Shown here: one piece after another, positions 12,411-21,011 of the stretch
How the letters are laid out: each line of letters opens with the position of its first letter
Numbering within the stretch: position 1 is the first letter of the stretch
Assembly (NCBI GenBank): GCA_020881835.1
Contig: CP052876.1
Span: forward strand, 2,790,001 to 2,854,000
From: Kineosporiaceae bacterium SCSIO 59966
GTDB lineage: Bacteria > Actinomycetota > Actinomycetes > Actinomycetales > SCSIO-59966
Length of the DNA stretch: 64,000 bases
Reading direction: 5' to 3'
Notes under the pieces: model-generated
Told to the model about the DNA's origin: nothing
Seen by the model: only the letters and a program-made list of their open reading frames with translations
The model's database searches: none
Position numbers and translations under genes: made by a program

Positions 12411-12483
12411 GGGCCTCTAGCTCAACTGGCAGAGCAGCGGACTTTTAATCCGCGGGTTGTGGGTTCGAGCCCCACGGGGCCCA
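12411..12483 (+). tRNA. tRNA-Lys(TTT)
   Basis: Cloverleaf of 73 bases: acceptor GGGCCTC/GGGGCCC (one G-T pair), D arm GCTC/GAGC, anticodon loop CTTTTAA (anticodon TTT) on a GCGGA/TCCGC stem, and T arm GTGGG-TTCGAGC-CCCAC. The discriminator is A and no CCA is encoded. Accessory DNA begins immediately downstream. Confidence 0.97.
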
Positions 12484-12489
12484 CCGATT

Positions 12490-12909
12490 TAGTCACTGTG
12501 CGAGCCACTCCGTTCGGGGCCGTTTCCGCTGGTAGGGCGGGTGCGGCCCCGTCGTTGCTGCGGGGTTGGGGGATGCGGAAGACCGGGATGAGCCGGTCGG
12601 GATAGGTGATGGTGACCTTGGCGACCAGGCTTCGACGCGGGCCTTGATCTGGTTGTGGATGCCGTTGGTGATGATCTCACCGATGTGATCGGCCACCGCC
12701 GCCAGGGTAGCGGGCTCGGGCATGGCGGGTTCGTCGTCCAGCGCGAGAGTCAGTTCGTCGCGGCGAACGCGGAGTTGCTTGCTCTTGGCTCGCAGCTCGG
12801 TGAGCCGGTCGGCGATCAGTTTCTCGTCCATCGTGCCGCGCTCGAACGCGGTCAGGTACCGGTCGATAGCCACCCGGTCTTGGTGGGCTGTCAGGCGGTC
12901 ACTGGGCAA
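12490..12909 (-). pseudogene. C-terminal remnant of a large serine recombinase
   Basis: Reads IDRYLTAFERGTMDEKLIADRLTELR, RRDELTLALDD and VADHIGEIITNGIHNQIKARVEA. This is the coiled-coil C-terminal region of actinobacterial resolvase/integrase-type serine recombinases. After KARVEA the frame shifts by one base: the expected continuation LVAKVTITYPDRLIPVFRIPQP is present in another frame. The N-terminal catalytic domain is missing; the IS256 element begins 41 bases beyond the break. It is a dead integrase, presumably left from the element that seeded this island. Confidence 0.8.
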
Positions 12910-12950: not shown

Positions 12951-14351
12951 GTGGTGTAGGACCCGGGGTGATGGGCGCGCCTTACGTGACGTAGGCGCGG
13001 CCACCGGGTGATCCTTCGAGTGATCTCTCACAACCACCTCGAAGAAGGACACCACGATGACCGCTGGACCCAGTATCGACCCTGCCGAGTTCTTGCACGA
13101 GCACCTGGCGCAGGCCTCGCCGGACTTGATGCGCGAGCTGCTCACCACCTTTGTGAACGCGCTGCTCAGCGCGGACGCGGACGCCGTGTGCGGCGCCGCC
13201 TACGGCACCCGCTCGGCGGCGCGGACCACCTCCCGCAACGGCTACCGGCACCGGGGCCTGGACACCCGGGTCGGCACGCTGGACGTGGCGATCCCCAAGC
13301 TGCGCGCCGGGACGTACTACCCGGACTGGCTGCTCGAGCGTCGCCGCCGCGCCGAGGCGGCGCTCACCTCCGTGGTGGCGACCTGCTACCTGCTCGGCGT
13401 GTCCACCCGACGGATGGACACGCTGGTCCAGTCCCTGGGCATCACCGGGCTGTCCAGGTCCCAGGTCAGCGTGATGGCCCGCGACCTCGACGCGCACGTC
13501 GCGGACTTCCGCACCCGGCCGCTGGACGCCGGCCCGTACACGTTCGTGGCCGCCGACGCCCTGACGATGAAGGTCCGCGAGGGCGGCCGCGTCCGGAACG
13601 TCGCGGTGCTGGTGGCCACCGGGGTGAACGCCGACGGGCACCGCGAGGTGCTCGGCGTGCAGGTGGCCACCGGGGAGACCCACGCCGGCTGGCTGGGCAT
13701 CTTCGGCGACCTGGCCGCCCGCGGCCTGACCGGGGTCGCCCTGGTCACCTCCGACGCCCACGCCGGCCTGGTCGAGGCGATCGCCGCCACCCTGCCCGGC
13801 GCGTCCTGGCAGCGCTGCCGCACCCACTACGCCGCCAACCTGATGGCCGCCTGCCCCAAGGGCGCCTGGCCCGGGGTCAAGGCAATGCTGCACAGCGTCT
13901 ACGACCAGCCCGACGCGGCCGCCGTGCACGCCCAGTTCGACAAGCTGCTGGACACCGTCGCCAACCAGCTGCCGGCCGTACACGACCACCTCGACGCCGC
14001 CCGCGCCGACATCCTGGCCTTCACCGCCTTCCCCCGCGAGGTGTGGCGCCAGATCTGGTCGAACAACCCCACCGAGCGCCTCAACCGCGAGATCCGCCGC
14101 CGCACCGATGTCGTCGGGATCTTCCCCGACCGCGACGCCATCATCCGCCTGGTCGGCGCAGTCCTCGCCGAGCAGCACGACGAACGGACCGAAGGACGCC
14201 GCTACCTCGGCCTCGACGTCCTAGCCCGCAGCCGCATCACCCTCATCCCCGGCGACACCACCCACACCGGCGAAAGCGATCTCCACGACGCCCAGGAGGC
14301 CCTCACCGCCTAATCCCACACGCCCAGCGAGGGATCAACCTCGTACACCAC
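12951..14351 (+). mobile_element. IS256-family insertion sequence (ends approximate)
   Basis: One intact Mutator-type transposase flanked by short inverted ends: GTGGTGTA at 12951 and its complement TACACCAC at 14344-14351, with weaker similarity inward. No convincing 8-9-bp target duplication was found. The end positions rest on this 8-base match and may be off by several bases. Confidence 0.7.
13057..14313 (+). CDS. IS256-family (Mutator) transposase
   Basis: 418 residues with the full family pattern: TSRNGYRHRGLDTRVGTLDVAIPKLR, then YYPDWLLERRRRAEAAL, VSTRRMDTLVQSLGI and LSRSQVSVMARDLD. The catalytic DDE residues lie in FVAADALTMKVR, LVTSDAHAGL and WSNNPTERLNREIRRRTDVVGIFP. The length is normal and there are no internal breaks, so it is probably functional. 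ATG 13057 follows AAGAAGGA. The element interrupts or abuts the decayed serine recombinase. Confidence 0.96.
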   Translation: MTAGPSIDPAEFLHEHLAQASPDLMRELLTTFVNALLSADADAVCGAAYGTRSAARTTSRNGYRHRGLDTRVGTLDVAIPKLRAGTYYPDWLLERRRRAEAALTSVVATCYLLGVSTRRMDTLVQSLGITGLSRSQVSVMARDLDAHVADFRTRPLDAGPYTFVAADALTMKVREGGRVRNVAVLVATGVNADGHREVLGVQVATGETHAGWLGIFGDLAARGLTGVALVTSDAHAGLVEAIAATLPGASWQRCRTHYAANLMAACPKGAWPGVKAMLHSVYDQPDAAAVHAQFDKLLDTVANQLPAVHDHLDAARADILAFTAFPREVWRQIWSNNPTERLNREIRRRTDVVGIFPDRDAIIRLVGAVLAEQHDERTEGRRYLGLDVLARSRITLIPGDTTHTGESDLHDAQEALTA

Positions 14352-15412: not shown

Positions 15413-17455
15413 ATGACTGAGTTTATCCCTGGCGTCGGCGCCGGATCGTTACTCCGTTCGGAGTTGCTTGCAGACGGTCGGTCGACGCGGATCGGTGCGA
15501 TTCACCAGATCGACTACAGTCAAGCCGTCGTGCTGACACATGACCGCTGGAAATTCGACGCCGGCGGAATTCCGCAATTCTCGTTCCTGCTTGCGACCGC
15601 GCAGGACGTCAACGATCCTCGCGTCGACGACGACGAGGTGCTGCTTCTGCGTGTCGAGGGCACGGCACCATTGTCGCTTGAACGCGACCTACACGCCGTG
15701 CGCGAGGAGTCCCTGCGCACAGCTCTCTCGAACAACCAGGACCCATCGCCGTCCGCTGTGCTCGATGCGGAACTCGACCCGTTCACCAAGAACCGAGTTT
15801 CGTTTACCGGCGTACGGTGCAAAATCCTCGGCACCTTCTATGAAGACGACATGGACGGGCAGAAGGTGCTTGAGTTCGGTGCCGACGTGGACAACTTCTA
15901 TGCCACGTCCACATACCGAGTCCTGAAACCGATCGGCGACGGCCTGGCAACGATCGCTTCCTACCTTAAGCCCACCGGGCGCCCCGTGGAACGCGTACGT
16001 ATCGGCGCGGTGCGGTACTCCGCGACGCGACGGCGAGCCAAGACCTCTAAGCAAGCCGACGCTGCCGTCGAAGTCAACATCCGAGACTTCATCGGCAACA
16101 AGACCGCTCTGCTCGGTATGACCCGGATGGGCAAGTCGAATACTGCAAAGATCATCATCGCGCGCACCTTCGTGGTCTCCGAGCGACAGCGTGCCACGGG
16201 TGGACACCCCATTGGTCAGCTGATCTTCGATCCGCAGGGAGAGTACGCTAACCCGAACACGCAGGATGGCACCGAGATCGCAGCGATTGGCGCGAACCAT
16301 GTCCGCATCTTCAAGTTTGGCGCGGACGGTACGCAGCCGCACGTGAAGCCTCTCAATATCAACTTCTTTTCTGAGAACCAGATCGACGCCGTTCAGGGGC
16401 TAATTTCCGACACGCTAAGCGGTGATGAGTCCGGCTACGTCAAGGACTTCGCGGGTACGTCCTACGCGGACGTGCCGGGGGACCGCTCCGCAACCACACA
16501 TGCCCAACGCGCCCGACTTGTTCTCTATGGTGCGCTGATGCGTGCAGGGTTCGCAGTGCCGACAAATTTTCGTGTGCCAATCAACATCGGCAGCACTTTT
16601 CAGCAGAAGATCGTCGCCAGACTGGGCCGCAATCCGTTTAAACGGGCCGGAGGTAGTGCCAATCTTGTGACAGTTGCTGCAGCAGACGTCGAGGATGTCG
16701 TCGACAAGATCGTGGAGCTTCGTGACGCCGGAGACGCCGACGCGACCGACTTTACGAAGGATGTCCGCTGGAAGAGCGTTGAGCCGATTTTCACGACTCG
16801 CAGCGGGAACCGCAGGGTCCGAGGCTGGCGAAACTTGAATCCGTTGCGCCCGTTTCATAGCCCTGCGACACGGAACGACCCTGCGATTGAGATCTACGGG
16901 GAGCTGGTCCGAGGTCGCATTGTGATCGTCGATTTGCATGTCGGGGCCGAGGCTGTGACCAAGGCGCTGAGCGAGTCGATTACGCGTCGGCTCCTTTTTA
17001 AGCAGACCGAGGTGTTTACGTCGGGACAGGAACCACCGCATATCCAGGTGATGCTTGAGGAGGCTCACAACCTGTTCTCGTCGGACCGGTACAAGGATGA
17101 CCTCGATGTGTGGGTCAAGCTCGCCAAGGAAGCCAGCAAACTCAACCTCGGCATGACCTACGCGACGCAGGAGGTCTCGGGGGTAGCGCACCAGGTCAAA
17201 GCGAATACTGCCAACTGGGTTGTCGCCCATTTGAACAACACAACAGAGGTGCGGGAACTGGCCAAGTTCTACGACTTCGGAGCGTTCTCAGATGCGATCA
17301 TCGCCTCCGAGGACCGCGGCTACGTGCGACTCAAGACACTGTCCTCACCGTACATCGTCCCCGTCCAGATCGATCGGTACGACATCGCGCTCGTCAACGA
17401 AGCACGAGCAGCGGCTGGTGACCCGCCGTTAACGCTGAACGGGACGGCGCCCTGA
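15413..17455 (+). CDS. herA: HerA-like DNA-translocating ATPase
   Basis: 680 residues. A ~220-residue N-terminal region (probable HAS-barrel) is followed by a FtsK/HerA ATPase core: Walker A GMTRMGKSN (235-243), a Walker-B-like LIFDPQGEY (270-278), a second acidic motif VMLEEAHNLF (547-555) and TYATQE. HerA proteins form hexameric DNA pumps that work with the nuclease NurA in end resection, and occur in defence islands. The stop overlaps the next start as TGATG, so translation is coupled to nurA. Codon use is less GC-biased than in the flanking genes, indicating horizontal acquisition. Confidence 0.9.
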   Translation: MTEFIPGVGAGSLLRSELLADGRSTRIGAIHQIDYSQAVVLTHDRWKFDAGGIPQFSFLLATAQDVNDPRVDDDEVLLLRVEGTAPLSLERDLHAVREESLRTALSNNQDPSPSAVLDAELDPFTKNRVSFTGVRCKILGTFYEDDMDGQKVLEFGADVDNFYATSTYRVLKPIGDGLATIASYLKPTGRPVERVRIGAVRYSATRRRAKTSKQADAAVEVNIRDFIGNKTALLGMTRMGKSNTAKIIIARTFVVSERQRATGGHPIGQLIFDPQGEYANPNTQDGTEIAAIGANHVRIFKFGADGTQPHVKPLNINFFSENQIDAVQGLISDTLSGDESGYVKDFAGTSYADVPGDRSATTHAQRARLVLYGALMRAGFAVPTNFRVPINIGSTFQQKIVARLGRNPFKRAGGSANLVTVAAADVEDVVDKIVELRDAGDADATDFTKDVRWKSVEPIFTTRSGNRRVRGWRNLNPLRPFHSPATRNDPAIEIYGELVRGRIVIVDLHVGAEAVTKALSESITRRLLFKQTEVFTSGQEPPHIQVMLEEAHNLFSSDRYKDDLDVWVKLAKEASKLNLGMTYATQEVSGVAHQVKANTANWVVAHLNNTTEVRELAKFYDFGAFSDAIIASEDRGYVRLKTLSSPYIVPVQIDRYDIALVNEARAAAGDPPLTLNGTAP

Positions 17456-18852
17456 TGCCGTACGAGACTGCCGGCGGGACTCACGAGATCGCGTCGCGGC
17501 TGGGGCATTCAGCGGCCGCCATACGGGCGATTGCGGACCAACGGACCTTTCATGTTCCGGCTGAGGCGATCCAGGACTCGGATTCGATCCGCGAGCGAAT
17601 TTGTCCGCGGGGCGATCTCGCCCCGCCTGCGTCGGAGCGGCTCACCGCCGCGCTGGCGATCGATGGTTCACACGTCGTTGAGCAGGTGCGTGATGGTCTT
17701 CCATCGGTCCTGTACGGGTTCGCGCAGGCCGCCGCAGCGTATGTGGATCTCGGCGTCATGGAGTCGCAACGGGCTGAGCGGTTCGTCGACCCGTACAAGA
17801 TCGAGCGTGCGGTCAACACCGCTCTTGTGACGCTGGACCTGCCCGTCGCCGGCGCCTACACGCGTGCCGGTGTCGACATTGTGACGTCGTGGCGCGAGGC
17901 TATCAACGAGCTGTTTCGGCAGAAGAAGATCGACGTCAATCGCCTCGACCAGCCGCTGCTTGATTTGCTTTTCCTTCTCCACGGCGTTCCCGGGTCGCCA
18001 GCGGCCACCGTGCCGGTTAACTGCCCGACGCAGGACTGCAAGAAGGACGTTCCCGTGCCGCCCGCTGGCGCCGATTGCGACGCGTGCGGCGTGCACCTTT
18101 TTCCCACCGACGTGCTTCGTATCCACGAGGAGGTTGGCGAAGAGGGCACAAACCAGTCCGCTCTCGGGCGGCTGATGTCGGTGGTCGAGCTGTTGGTGCT
18201 GGTCGGGCTGGCGACGCTGCTGTGGGAGCAGTCGCGCCATAAGGCTCTGCCAACTACGCTGTTCATCGTCGATGGCCCGCTGGCCGTGTTCGGCACACCA
18301 GCAAAGCTGCGCGGGCGAGCCCTTGAATACTTCCAAGCGATGGGCAGTACTGCTCCGGGCAAAGCGCCATACGTTTGTGGGATTGAGAAGTCCGGTGCTC
18401 TGGTCGACTACGCGCGCCAACTGGCGCGGCACGGCATTCTCGAACCTGGTGACCTGTTGGTATGCGATGAACAGATCATTGCTCGCGTCGTCAATGCTAA
18501 CAACGCCCGCGCCTACGGCAAGGAGACGTACTGGGGCCGCAAGTTCGTGTATCGCGCGCTTGATGGGCGAGTCGTCGTCCCGACCGTGCCACCACAGACC
18601 GGCGCACCGTACGATGCCAACGGGGGCCAAGCCGACCCGGCGGCCTACCCGACGCTGCCGGCAATCCTCGACGTGATCGACCGCACCGGTTCCTCAATGT
18701 ACGTCGATGGCATCATCCCGGTGGCGGCCGCGCACGGGAAGGCCGCGTTCCCGATTGGTGTGGGCACTGATGTGCTCCGCCTTGTGGCCACCAAACGTCT
18801 CGGCGTCGACTCGTCTGGTGGACAAGCCGCTCCGGTACGGTCTGCGCCGTGA
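17455..18852 (+). CDS. nurA: NurA-like 5'-3' nuclease with zinc-ribbon insert
   Basis: 465 residues. NurA signatures are present: LAIDGSH (catalytic Asp at 70), FIVDGPLAVFG (Asp 273), CGIEKSG (about 309-314) and LVCDEQ. Between the first two lies an inserted zinc-ribbon, C190-x4-C195...C208-x2-C211, not present in the classic archaeal enzyme. Classic NurA has an RNase H-like fold, uses Mn2+ and is threaded with DNA by HerA. It begins within the herA stop (TGATG) and ends within the methyltransferase start (TGATG again), so the three proteins should be made together. Assignment rests on motifs and on pairing with HerA. Confidence 0.8.
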   Translation: MPYETAGGTHEIASRLGHSAAAIRAIADQRTFHVPAEAIQDSDSIRERICPRGDLAPPASERLTAALAIDGSHVVEQVRDGLPSVLYGFAQAAAAYVDLGVMESQRAERFVDPYKIERAVNTALVTLDLPVAGAYTRAGVDIVTSWREAINELFRQKKIDVNRLDQPLLDLLFLLHGVPGSPAATVPVNCPTQDCKKDVPVPPAGADCDACGVHLFPTDVLRIHEEVGEEGTNQSALGRLMSVVELLVLVGLATLLWEQSRHKALPTTLFIVDGPLAVFGTPAKLRGRALEYFQAMGSTAPGKAPYVCGIEKSGALVDYARQLARHGILEPGDLLVCDEQIIARVVNANNARAYGKETYWGRKFVYRALDGRVVVPTVPPQTGAPYDANGGQADPAAYPTLPAILDVIDRTGSSMYVDGIIPVAAAHGKAAFPIGVGTDVLRLVATKRLGVDSSGGQAAPVRSAP

Positions 18853-20063
18853 TGGAGAATGTGGCTCTGCTGCCGGCCGCACCCCTCCGGGCTGCTCACG
18901 CAGCTGACGCTGTCGCCCCCGCAATCCCGACGCACATCCTCGACAACCCACGCCCGCTCCTCGCACCCCTTGGCGACGTTGATCACCCGCTTATGGCGAG
19001 CAGGTACCAGTCGCCACTGCGTTACCCAGGAGCAAAGTCGTCCCTTGCTCCGGTGATCGCCCGGATCTTGGATGCCGCCAAGGGTGCGCGGGCCGTTCCG
19101 GAGATCAACCTGCTCGTCGAGCCGTTCGCTGGCGGCGCGTCGGCGTCCTTGCGACTCGTCGGCCAAGGGATCGTCGACCGAGTGTTACTTGCTGACGTGG
19201 ATCCGTTGGTAACCGCTTTCTGGCAGGCCGCGGCCGCTGACACAGATGCGCTGATCGACCGCATGCATGACGAGTGGACCCGATACGTCAAGCCAGGCGG
19301 AGCAACCGCCGTCGAACGGTGGGACTACTGGCGTTCCTGGGCGCCCGCTTGGAAGGCGAAGCCTTCCACGGTCCGACTGGGGTTGGCGACACAGTGCTTA
19401 TTTCTAAACCGCACGACGTTTTCTGGAATCCTTCACGGTAAGGCAGGCCCGATCGGCGGACGCAAGCAGGAGAGCCCGTACGGAATCGGATGCCGGTGGA
19501 ATCCGGAGGCCATAGAGGAACGGCTTCGATACGTCGGTCACTTGTACGACACTGGCCGACTCGTCGATGTCTGGCACAAGGACTGGAAACAGACACTCGA
19601 TGACGTGCCCGAGTACTACCCGCAGCTGATCCCGTCTCGCGTCGTCGCCTACCTCGACCCACCCTACATCGAAAAAGCTTCGCACTTGTACCGCACCTCT
19701 TTCGACCCCAGAGGTGGATACGGCGGCGACGGAGCTGGCAAGGCGGGATCAGATGACCACATGCTCCACATGCAGCTCGCCGCATACCTACGCACCAAGG
19801 CGCAGTTCCGCTGGCTGCTCAGTTATGACAATAACCCACTGCTGACCGAAAGTACTTGGCTCTACGCGCACGCTCGCATGACACCTAGCCGCGTGGACCG
19901 GGACACGCTCGGCGCACATTTTTGGACCTTGACCAAACGGTTGGTAAAGATGCGGTACACCGCCAGCGGTAAGACCGGCAAGCGCGACGCTGATGAACTC
20001 CTCATCACAACCCTCCCGCCATCGACGGTCCCCGTAGATCAGCAGCTGCGCGAGCTGCCTTGA
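18852..20063 (+). CDS. D12-class (Dam-like) adenine-N6 DNA methyltransferase
   Basis: 403 residues from ATG 18852, which overlaps the nurA stop. The SAM-binding motif is split as in D12 enzymes: SPLRYPGAKSSLAPVI (54-69) and LVEPFAGGASASLRL (88-102). The catalytic DPPY is in VAYLDPPYIEKASHLY (265-280), and the FLNRTTFSGILHGKAGPIGG block is typical. The first ~47 residues are unusual for the family, so ATG 18993 (MASRYQSPLRYPG) may be the real start. The recognition sequence cannot be deduced; many relatives modify GATC. In this operon it most likely marks self DNA or loads with HerA-NurA. Confidence 0.9.
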   Translation: MENVALLPAAPLRAAHAADAVAPAIPTHILDNPRPLLAPLGDVDHPLMASRYQSPLRYPGAKSSLAPVIARILDAAKGARAVPEINLLVEPFAGGASASLRLVGQGIVDRVLLADVDPLVTAFWQAAAADTDALIDRMHDEWTRYVKPGGATAVERWDYWRSWAPAWKAKPSTVRLGLATQCLFLNRTTFSGILHGKAGPIGGRKQESPYGIGCRWNPEAIEERLRYVGHLYDTGRLVDVWHKDWKQTLDDVPEYYPQLIPSRVVAYLDPPYIEKASHLYRTSFDPRGGYGGDGAGKAGSDDHMLHMQLAAYLRTKAQFRWLLSYDNNPLLTESTWLYAHARMTPSRVDRDTLGAHFWTLTKRLVKMRYTASGKTGKRDADELLITTLPPSTVPVDQQLRELP

Positions 20064-20805
20064 TGCTGGGGAGGTCACTCGCCTGCCACCACCTGCGCAG
20101 GACCTTGCGGCCGTAGTTGTTCGTGCCCGCGATCCGGTCCAGCTCCGCGCCGGTCGGTGTGCGGCCCTGGGCCCGCTCGGTCACGTCGTAGGCCCACATC
20201 CGCTGCTCGGCGATCGGCTCGGCCGGGGGGCGAGACTCGTAGGCCCACATCCGCTGCTCGGCGATCGGCTCGGCCGGGGGGCGAGACTCGTCCGAGACCA
20301 CCGCGAGACGCACCACCGCCCCGGTCTCGTCGTCGGTCTCGCCCCTCTCGGCGGTCTCGGTACGGGTCTCGGTACGGGTCTCGCTCGCGGTCTCGGCGCT
20401 GGTTCCGGCACGGTGCCGCTCGAGCGCGCGGCTGAGCAACTCGACCGCCAGCAGCAGTGCCAGCGGTGGGCACGCCGCCACCGCCACGGCGAACACGCTC
20501 AGCTCCTGGGCCGCCGCCACGTTCGCGCACAGCGAAGGGCAGATCCCGAACACAAAGGACAACTAAGCCGCTCACCGGCCACCGCCACGACGGCCGTGGC
20601 CGGTGGTCATCCACAACTCGACTGTGGCCGTGGTCAGGATGCCGTCCACGATCAACGGCCAGATCGCCGCCGTGGCCTCGTCGGCACCAAACCGCAAAGC
20701 GAACTCGCGGCCGTGCCGGTAGGAGGCGTACGCCGCACCAAGCGCGACCAGTGCGGTACAGACGCACTGCACCCATAGCGCGCAGTCCCTCCGAGGGGTT
20801 GCCAT
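20005..20805 (-). pseudogene. DUF2637 membrane protein gene broken by two in-frame stops
   Basis: The upstream half (20805-20575) reads LVALGAAYASYRHGREFALRFG and IWPLIVDGILTTATVELW. The downstream half reads FVFGICPSLCANVAAAQEL and ACPPLALLLAVELLSRALERHR. Together they make one DUF2637 protein (SpdB-like, common on actinomycete plasmids and integrative elements). They lie in the same frame but are separated by TGA (20572-20574) and TAG (20563-20565). The C-terminal part has a Glu/Thr-rich linker, a duplicated 17-residue unit and NNYGRKVLRRWWQ. The last ~59 bases overlap the methyltransferase 3' end, suggesting that the natural terminus was replaced. Confidence 0.7.
20187..20288. repeat. Two tandem copies of a 51-bp unit
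   Basis: Two identical 51-bp copies (20187-20237 and 20238-20288), each beginning CGTAGGCCCACATCC. The minus-strand product repeats a 17-residue unit containing ESRPPAEPIAEQRMWAY. The perfect identity implies a recent slippage duplication. Confidence 0.95.
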
Positions 20806-20810
20806 GGCGC

Positions 20811-21011
20811 TCACCGCAGCCCGCCTCCCGTCGCGCACCGCACATCGTCCGGGCAGTAACCGACGCAGGCGAACACCTGCGAACCGGTCACCGGCCGGAC
20901 CACCTGCACATGCGGGACCCGGACGCGGAGGTAGTCAGCTCCGCACGCCATGCAGGCCAACCCGTCGGCCTGCAACGCCGCCAATCCGACGATGATCGTG
21001 TCGTGGTTCAT
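20811..21011 (-). CDS. Small Cys-containing mobile-element protein
   Basis: 66 residues: MNHDTIIVGLAALQADGLACMACGADYLRVRVPHVQVV and a C-terminal CVGYCPDDVRC. The CxxC and CxxxC pairs suggest a zinc knuckle. Small proteins of this kind accompany DUF2637 genes on actinomycete integrative elements. It lies 5 bases upstream of the DUF2637 remnant, in the same direction. No function can be assigned. Confidence 0.5.
   Translation of the reverse strand: MNHDTIIVGLAALQADGLACMACGADYLRVRVPHVQVVRPVTGSQVFACVGYCPDDVRCATGGGLR

Follow-up and report, generated by a model that had tools for sequence, protein, structure and literature searches.

Whether a DNA-pumping motor and a nuclease encoded beside a DNA methyltransferase can serve a bacterium to tell its own DNA from that of an invader is the question raised by a three-gene locus in Kineosporiaceae bacterium SCSIO 59966. 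A sequence-only reading of the locus had proposed that the trio acts on unmodified or foreign DNA while the methyltransferase protects the host, that is, a restriction-like system with a translocating nuclease at its core. We examined this proposal computationally, starting from a stretch of 64,000 nt of contig CP052876.1 (hereafter the window).

A HerA-NurA-methyltransferase operon inside a low-GC island

Three ORFs of the window, encoding a HerA-family ATPase, a NurA-superfamily nuclease with a zinc ribbon and a D12 adenine methyltransferase, form one operon (Table 1). The coupled, co-directional arrangement with TGATG overlaps that had been read from the sequence was confirmed at both junctions. 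At the first, the TGA at 17453-17455 overlaps the ATG at 17455; at the second, the TGA occupies 18850-18852 and the methyltransferase starts at either the ATG at 18852 or the GTG at 18849. The lower GC content was also borne out, with 59-65% across the operon versus ∼68-81% in the surroundings. The low-GC insert that contains the trio adjoins a tRNA-Lys (TTT), which is likely the integration site of the island, and a second copy of the 3′ end of this tRNA was not found within the 64-kb window. Judging from the sequence shared with three other loci carrying the trio (L008, L011 and L012), the far edge of the island would lie near 21.1 kb; in L011, a related junction sequence is present alongside a tRNA-Leu. 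The mobile-element debris described on both sides of the operon corresponds to an IS256-family transposase upstream, identified by Pfam, and to a DUF2637 gene downstream. The latter and the HTH-like ORF come after the trio in the same three loci as well, and are likely the remnant of an actinobacterial integrative element.

Other features of the island were observed. The transposase (IS256/Mutator family, 13057-14313, + strand, Pfam 3.8e-135) looks intact and is placed between the tRNA-Lys and the trio. A short ORF on the opposite strand (12493-12909) follows the tRNA-Lys immediately, and related DNA is found by the tRNA in L011. Read by eye, we take its product to resemble the C terminus of a serine recombinase, an identity that is unproven since the ORF has no Pfam match. 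Finally, a perfect 51-bp tandem duplication (20186-20287) is present within the HTH-like ORF that follows the trio.

Table 1. Position of the trio, its motifs and neighbouring features in the window
Feature	Position	Strand	Basis or remark
tRNA-Lys (TTT)	12411..12485	+	ARAGORN; context
HerA/TdpA-like hexameric-type DNA translocase, 680 aa	15413..17455	+	Pfam DUF87, TdpA match, AF2 model
Walker A motif GMTRMGKSN, residues 235-243	16115..16141	+	Alignment of 35 relatives
TGATG overlap, herA stop / nurA start	17453..17457	+	Sequence
NurA-superfamily (TdpB-like) nuclease, 465 aa	17455..18852	+	AF2 model, invariant residues
Catalytic-type Asp70 codon (DGS)	17662..17664	+	82/82 homologues
Zinc ribbon C190-C195...C208-C211, inserted in the nuclease	18022..18087	+	Kept in 71-82 of 82
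Catalytic-type Asp273 codon (DGPLA)	18271..18273	+	82/82 homologues
D12-class adenine-N6 DNA methyltransferase, 404 aa	18849..20063	+	Pfam D12, PADLOC, structure profile matches
DPPY catalytic motif, residues 270-273	19656..19667	+	Alignment of D12 relatives
HTH-like ORF and DUF2637 gene	20005..20838	-	Pfam DUF2637; downstream of the trio, context

The motor and the nuclease resemble TdpA and TdpB

The HerA protein matched the Pfam DUF87/HerA family (8e-10). Its Walker motifs, already noted from the sequence, withstood comparison with 35 aligned relatives: G235, M236, R238, G240, K241, S242 and N243 are invariant, and both the Walker A motif and a Walker-B-like EEAH are kept in 35/35 except at two Thr/Met-type positions. 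The best PDB match of the single sequence was TdpA (1e-13), and TdpA also came first against the HerA family profile (3.5e-32; next best entry, 7.5e-18). In agreement, TdpA was the top fold match of an AlphaFold2 model (pLDDT 85; Z 30.6, 515/560 residues aligned), with a close runner-up (Z 28.5).

The nuclease alone was without a match in Pfam, PADLOC, NCBIfam and PHROGs, and no model of PADLOC-DB 2023 matched its family (0/39 members), which would be an addition to the content of that database. Cyanobacterial homologues, with ∼27% identity over the full length, gave a Pfam NurA match about at the cut-off. An AlphaFold2 model built from 39 homologues from genome loci (pLDDT 85.7) matched best the TdpB subunit of the TdpAB complex (Foldseek 7e-9, Z 21.0, 327/358 residues aligned), whereas archaeal and Deinococcus NurA structures ranked below it (Z 10-15; archaeal NurA, 15.3). 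By sequence, the nuclease hardly resembles TdpB (E about 1), and the proposed link between both nucleases rests on the predicted fold. Capsid and zinc-finger proteins gave weak PDB matches with the nuclease profile, which were taken as chance. An alignment of 82 homologues, from which truncated or decayed copies were omitted, showed that D70 and D273 are invariant, as are K312, E225 and E245, and that the cysteines of the zinc ribbon are widely kept (C190 and C195 in 80/82, C208 in 82/82 and C211 in 71/82). Hence, the aspartates whose loss had been named beforehand as an argument against the proposal are present in every homologue aligned. Because of the modelled fold, the invariant residues and the kept cysteines, the middle protein can be assigned to the NurA superfamily as a nuclease of TdpB type that carries a zinc ribbon as an insertion, which agrees with the NurA-like nuclease first described.

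The third protein matched Pfam MethyltransfD12 (7e-12) and contains the DPPY motif, as had been claimed; D270, P271 and P272 are invariant among 20 D12 relatives. In PADLOC it matched PD-Lambda-5_B (3e-49), and its profile matched the structures 7m6b, DpnM and Dam. No other D12 methyltransferase was detected in this genome.

The domain content of the trio bears on the possibility that loss of the mark, as in a phage takeover, prompts the pair to kill the cell instead of removing phage DNA specifically. Any nuclease of unmarked DNA would attack a demethylated host genome, and some HerA partners act by cell suicide. Nevertheless, apart from the nuclease itself, Pfam, PADLOC, NCBIfam and PHROGs revealed neither a sensor nor a toxin domain in the three proteins, and we regard such abortive infection as improbable.

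A methyltransferase gene accompanies the HerA-NurA pair across phyla

Homologues of the nuclease were found by tblastn on a haloarchaeal plasmid, three cyanobacterial plasmids and two temperate Vibrio phages. A nuclease profile scan of one genome per species (84,980 species) yielded 135 loci, of which 80 were analysed. These belong to phyla that include Actinomycetota, Pseudomonadota, Bacillota, Chloroflexota, Verrucomicrobiota, Planctomycetota and Cyanobacteriota, and also to haloarchaea and a Lokiarchaeote. HerA is encoded immediately upstream of the nuclease in 86 of the 88 loci examined.

After removal of duplicates and of loci cut by contig ends, which gave no verdict on the methyltransferase (L025, L036, L046, L061, L073 and L078), 79 loci were assessable. 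A methyltransferase gene lies directly beside the pair in 72 of them, either of the D12 class (28 downstream, 5 downstream on the opposite strand and 4 upstream) or of the PF01555 type (14 downstream and 21 upstream). When nucleases were clustered at 60% identity, it was present in 24/24 assessable clusters. By chance, about two adjacent methyltransferases would be expected over all loci (7 methyltransferase hits in 686 kb of flank). The conserved co-occurrence that the sequence-only reading had suggested looking for is therefore found, and linkage of this kind is a feature of restriction-modification systems in the broad sense.

The seven loci without an adjacent methyltransferase comprise five from Nostocales, one from Methyloversatilis, in which the methyltransferase is present but further off, and one decayed locus. 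Since five Nostocales pairs lack it, an adjacent methyltransferase is not strictly required. A further candidate for this group, L085, was dropped as mislabelled.

In Nostocales (L003, L004, L005, L069 and L071) we observed a stable unit consisting of an XRE regulator, HerA and NurA, located on plasmids as well as in genomes and in some cases beside AbiTii, CD-NTase or type ISP restriction genes. L051 (7950-9173) holds a decayed actinobacterial copy of the nuclease, whose ORF starts close to the active site and has INGG in place of the IDG of homologues; HerA was not detected at this locus.

A second sample, consisting of 396 genomes of the phylum that were not picked by sequence pattern, contained eight nuclease carriers, the genome of the window included. 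Four others have an adjacent D12 methyltransferase, two of them belonging to a distant subfamily, and in the remaining three the flank was too short to judge the neighbour.

The methyltransferase has been exchanged while the pair stayed

Three methyltransferase architectures are found beside HerA-NurA. In addition to D12 enzymes, Pfam assigned all others to PF01555, in two groups: one with a full-length match and TSPPF near the N terminus, and another that matches in permuted order alone, with motif I before TSPPY. TSPPY/F is the usual motif of m4C enzymes, and for this reason both m6A and m4C may serve as marks across systems. The gene may follow or precede the pair or lie on the opposite strand, and its type or position changed at least nine times on the NurA tree.

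Sequence identities of HerA and NurA are tightly correlated (0.945), while those of HerA and the methyltransferase are less so (0.687). Within the actinobacterial D12 group, L015-L020 show 74-84% identity for HerA and 75-79% for NurA versus 51-54% for the methyltransferase; for L023 the values are 62%, 67% and 60%, respectively. The trees of Actinobacteria point the same way. The methyltransferase tree rejects a clade of the groups W and B (AU p 0.0015) that the NurA tree supports (100/99), and the grouping favoured by the methyltransferase is in turn rejected by NurA (p 0.0005) and by HerA (p 5e-60), these p values being somewhat optimistic because W and B were picked after the identities were known. 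The HerA tree places L016 outside W+B. Given the conflict between its tree and those of HerA and NurA, the methyltransferase appears to have been swapped in Actinobacteria while the pair stayed. Faster evolution could account in part for its divergence, although the topology tests argue otherwise. Overall, the methyltransferase is an exchangeable module, of the D12 class in the lineage of the window and of the PF01555 type in others.

These results also bear on whether DNA ends or replication intermediates alone mark the invader, in the manner of RecBCD, with the methyltransferase serving another purpose such as anti-restriction by the mobile element. Orphan methyltransferases are common on mobile elements, the Nostocales pairs do without an adjacent one, and archaeal HerA-NurA, according to PMC12977600, degrades both strands from ends of any structure. 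However, an optional hitch-hiker would often be lost, whereas here the methyltransferase is found in every assessable cluster, often abutting or overlapping the pair, and has repeatedly switched class and position. We consider recognition of ends alone unlikely, if slightly less so than abortive infection.

The trio is mobile and sporadic

Within the order, the nuclease was found in 1/396 genomes, that of the window itself, and nucleases that are 85-94% identical occur in different actinobacterial families. The two temperate Vibrio phages carry the trio between the integrase and excisionase genes, and the trio is also present on the haloarchaeal plasmid. Two nuclease scans of viral contigs returned no relatives, even though these phages carry the nuclease. 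In one of the two near-identical phages (L007, 1309-3502) HerA is split into two annotated ORFs, and that phage may therefore have lost the system. Many flanks of relatives hold defence genes, namely AbiE, GajB, type IV restriction, DRT, PD-Lambda-1, type ISP and CD-NTase genes, listed here as present and not as enriched over background.

This distribution was compared with what a housekeeping operon for end resection or repair, formed by a bacterial HerA-NurA, would show, namely a place in the core genome and vertical inheritance. The proteins belong to the same superfamilies, and the HerA-NurA of D. radiodurans and archaea are relatives by fold. Against this, the locus is accessory: none of the other 395 sampled genomes of the order has it, and it is present in 8/396 of the phylum. 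It occurs on phages, plasmids and islands, and the 85-94% identical nucleases belong to distinct families. The homologous loci are thus not housekeeping ones; confinement to such loci had been put forward as contrary to the defence proposal. A repair function is very improbable.

A model for discrimination between own and invading DNA

The operon, the folds, the intact active-site residues, the mobility and the near-universal, interchangeable methyltransferase are what the analysis shows directly. We think it likely, with good though not full confidence, that the three genes form a restriction-modification-like defence system in which unmarked DNA is degraded. The best explanation is a TdpAB-like restriction system in which base methylation replaces phosphorothioation as the self mark, and the reading of a translocating nuclease with a protective methyltransferase remains the one that fits best. 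As the pair recurs almost always beside interchangeable marking enzymes, the trio most likely represents a widespread and apparently undescribed way of telling own from invading DNA.

In this model, the methyltransferase would methylate the adenine of a specific motif in the DNA of the host, and the HerA ring motor would pump duplex DNA into the NurA/TdpB-like nuclease, which would degrade DNA devoid of the methyl mark. Methylated sites would halt loading, translocation or cleavage, and destruction would therefore be confined to phage or plasmid DNA without the mark, above all where it has free ends. Restriction of phages by the trio is presumed from this scheme. That methylation blocks HerA-NurA, and at which step, is suggested by analogy with TdpAB, whose complex is reported to be inhibited by phosphorothioate.

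The opposite polarity, a type IV-like attack on modified DNA, was also weighed. HerA-family motors occur in diverse defence systems (PMC10853773), and some systems read modifications; but with a cognate methyltransferase in the same operon the host chromosome itself would be exposed to attack, unless the enzyme writes a mark other than the one targeted. We give this reading very little credence.

Returning to methylation as the self mark, the exchange of the methyltransferase while HerA and NurA stay implies that the pair itself is probably blind to the recognition sequence. Either it would sense methylated bases generally or it would rely on the methyltransferase for recognition. Opinion is evenly balanced on the broader proposal of a distinct and widespread restriction-modification class, in which a conserved HerA-NurA works with m6A or m4C methyltransferases of unrelated architecture and follows methylation in general, or the specificity of the methyltransferase, rather than the cognate sequence. 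In classical type II systems, nuclease and methyltransferase must share a recognition sequence, while here the methyltransferase is exchanged and motor and nuclease stay. If the model is right, one has to ask how a machine that moves along DNA detects a mark placed at specific sites, which it may not read itself.

Comparison with known systems

A published description of the HerA-NurA-methyltransferase trio was not found in the open-access literature, in line with the earlier remark that no system of exactly this make-up was known, nor is the trio described in the accessible parts of papers on HerA defence, BREX-related systems, CoCoNuTs and Deinococcus m4C restriction. HerA/FtsK motors have been recruited to defence, sometimes with DNA modification, and neither of the two articles concerned mentions NurA (PMC10853773, PMC12839542). 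The HerA/FtsK capture, DndFGH and BREX-related capture systems share such motors with the trio but use other nucleases and many more components. The anti-phage systems HerA-Sir2 (Nezha) and HerA-DUF4297 likewise join a HerA motor to a nuclease or NADase effector. They differ in the effector fold and lack a methyltransferase; the HerA neighbour described here has a NurA/TdpB fold and no Sir2 or DUF4297 match in Pfam or PADLOC. PD-Lambda-5, to whose B component the methyltransferase of the operon is related, was described by its authors as an RM+Abi system in compact prophage form (PMC9519451), and we saw no HerA or NurA reported there.

Archaeal and Deinococcus HerA-NurA combine the same superfamilies, a HerA motor with a NurA nuclease, but their role is in repair or uncertain and their structural similarity is lower. 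We know of no methyltransferase partner for them. If our interpretation holds, one branch of this superfamily, whose function is debated, would acquire a likely defence role. The sequence-only reading had drawn on archaeal HerA-NurA; its restriction-like core stands, but the nearest characterised relative is TdpAB of TdpABC, and the methyltransferase is swappable. The motor-nuclease of TdpABC, which An et al. are said to have described in 2025 (Nat Chem Biol 21:1160, as cited in PMC13251355), reportedly degrades unmarked phage DNA and is inhibited by the phosphorothioate mark. TdpABC and the trio share a motor, a nuclease and a DNA-modifying partner; HerA is matched best by TdpA, both in sequence and in fold, and the nuclease is matched best by TdpB in fold. 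They differ in the third gene, a D12 base methyltransferase instead of TdpC, and in the length of the nuclease (465 aa versus 375), and identity is 14-19%. The nuclease of the trio also has a zinc ribbon. If our interpretation holds, base methylation and phosphorothioation would be alternative self marks for one kind of ring-motor nuclease. Restriction by TdpAB-like machines is already a known kind of defence.
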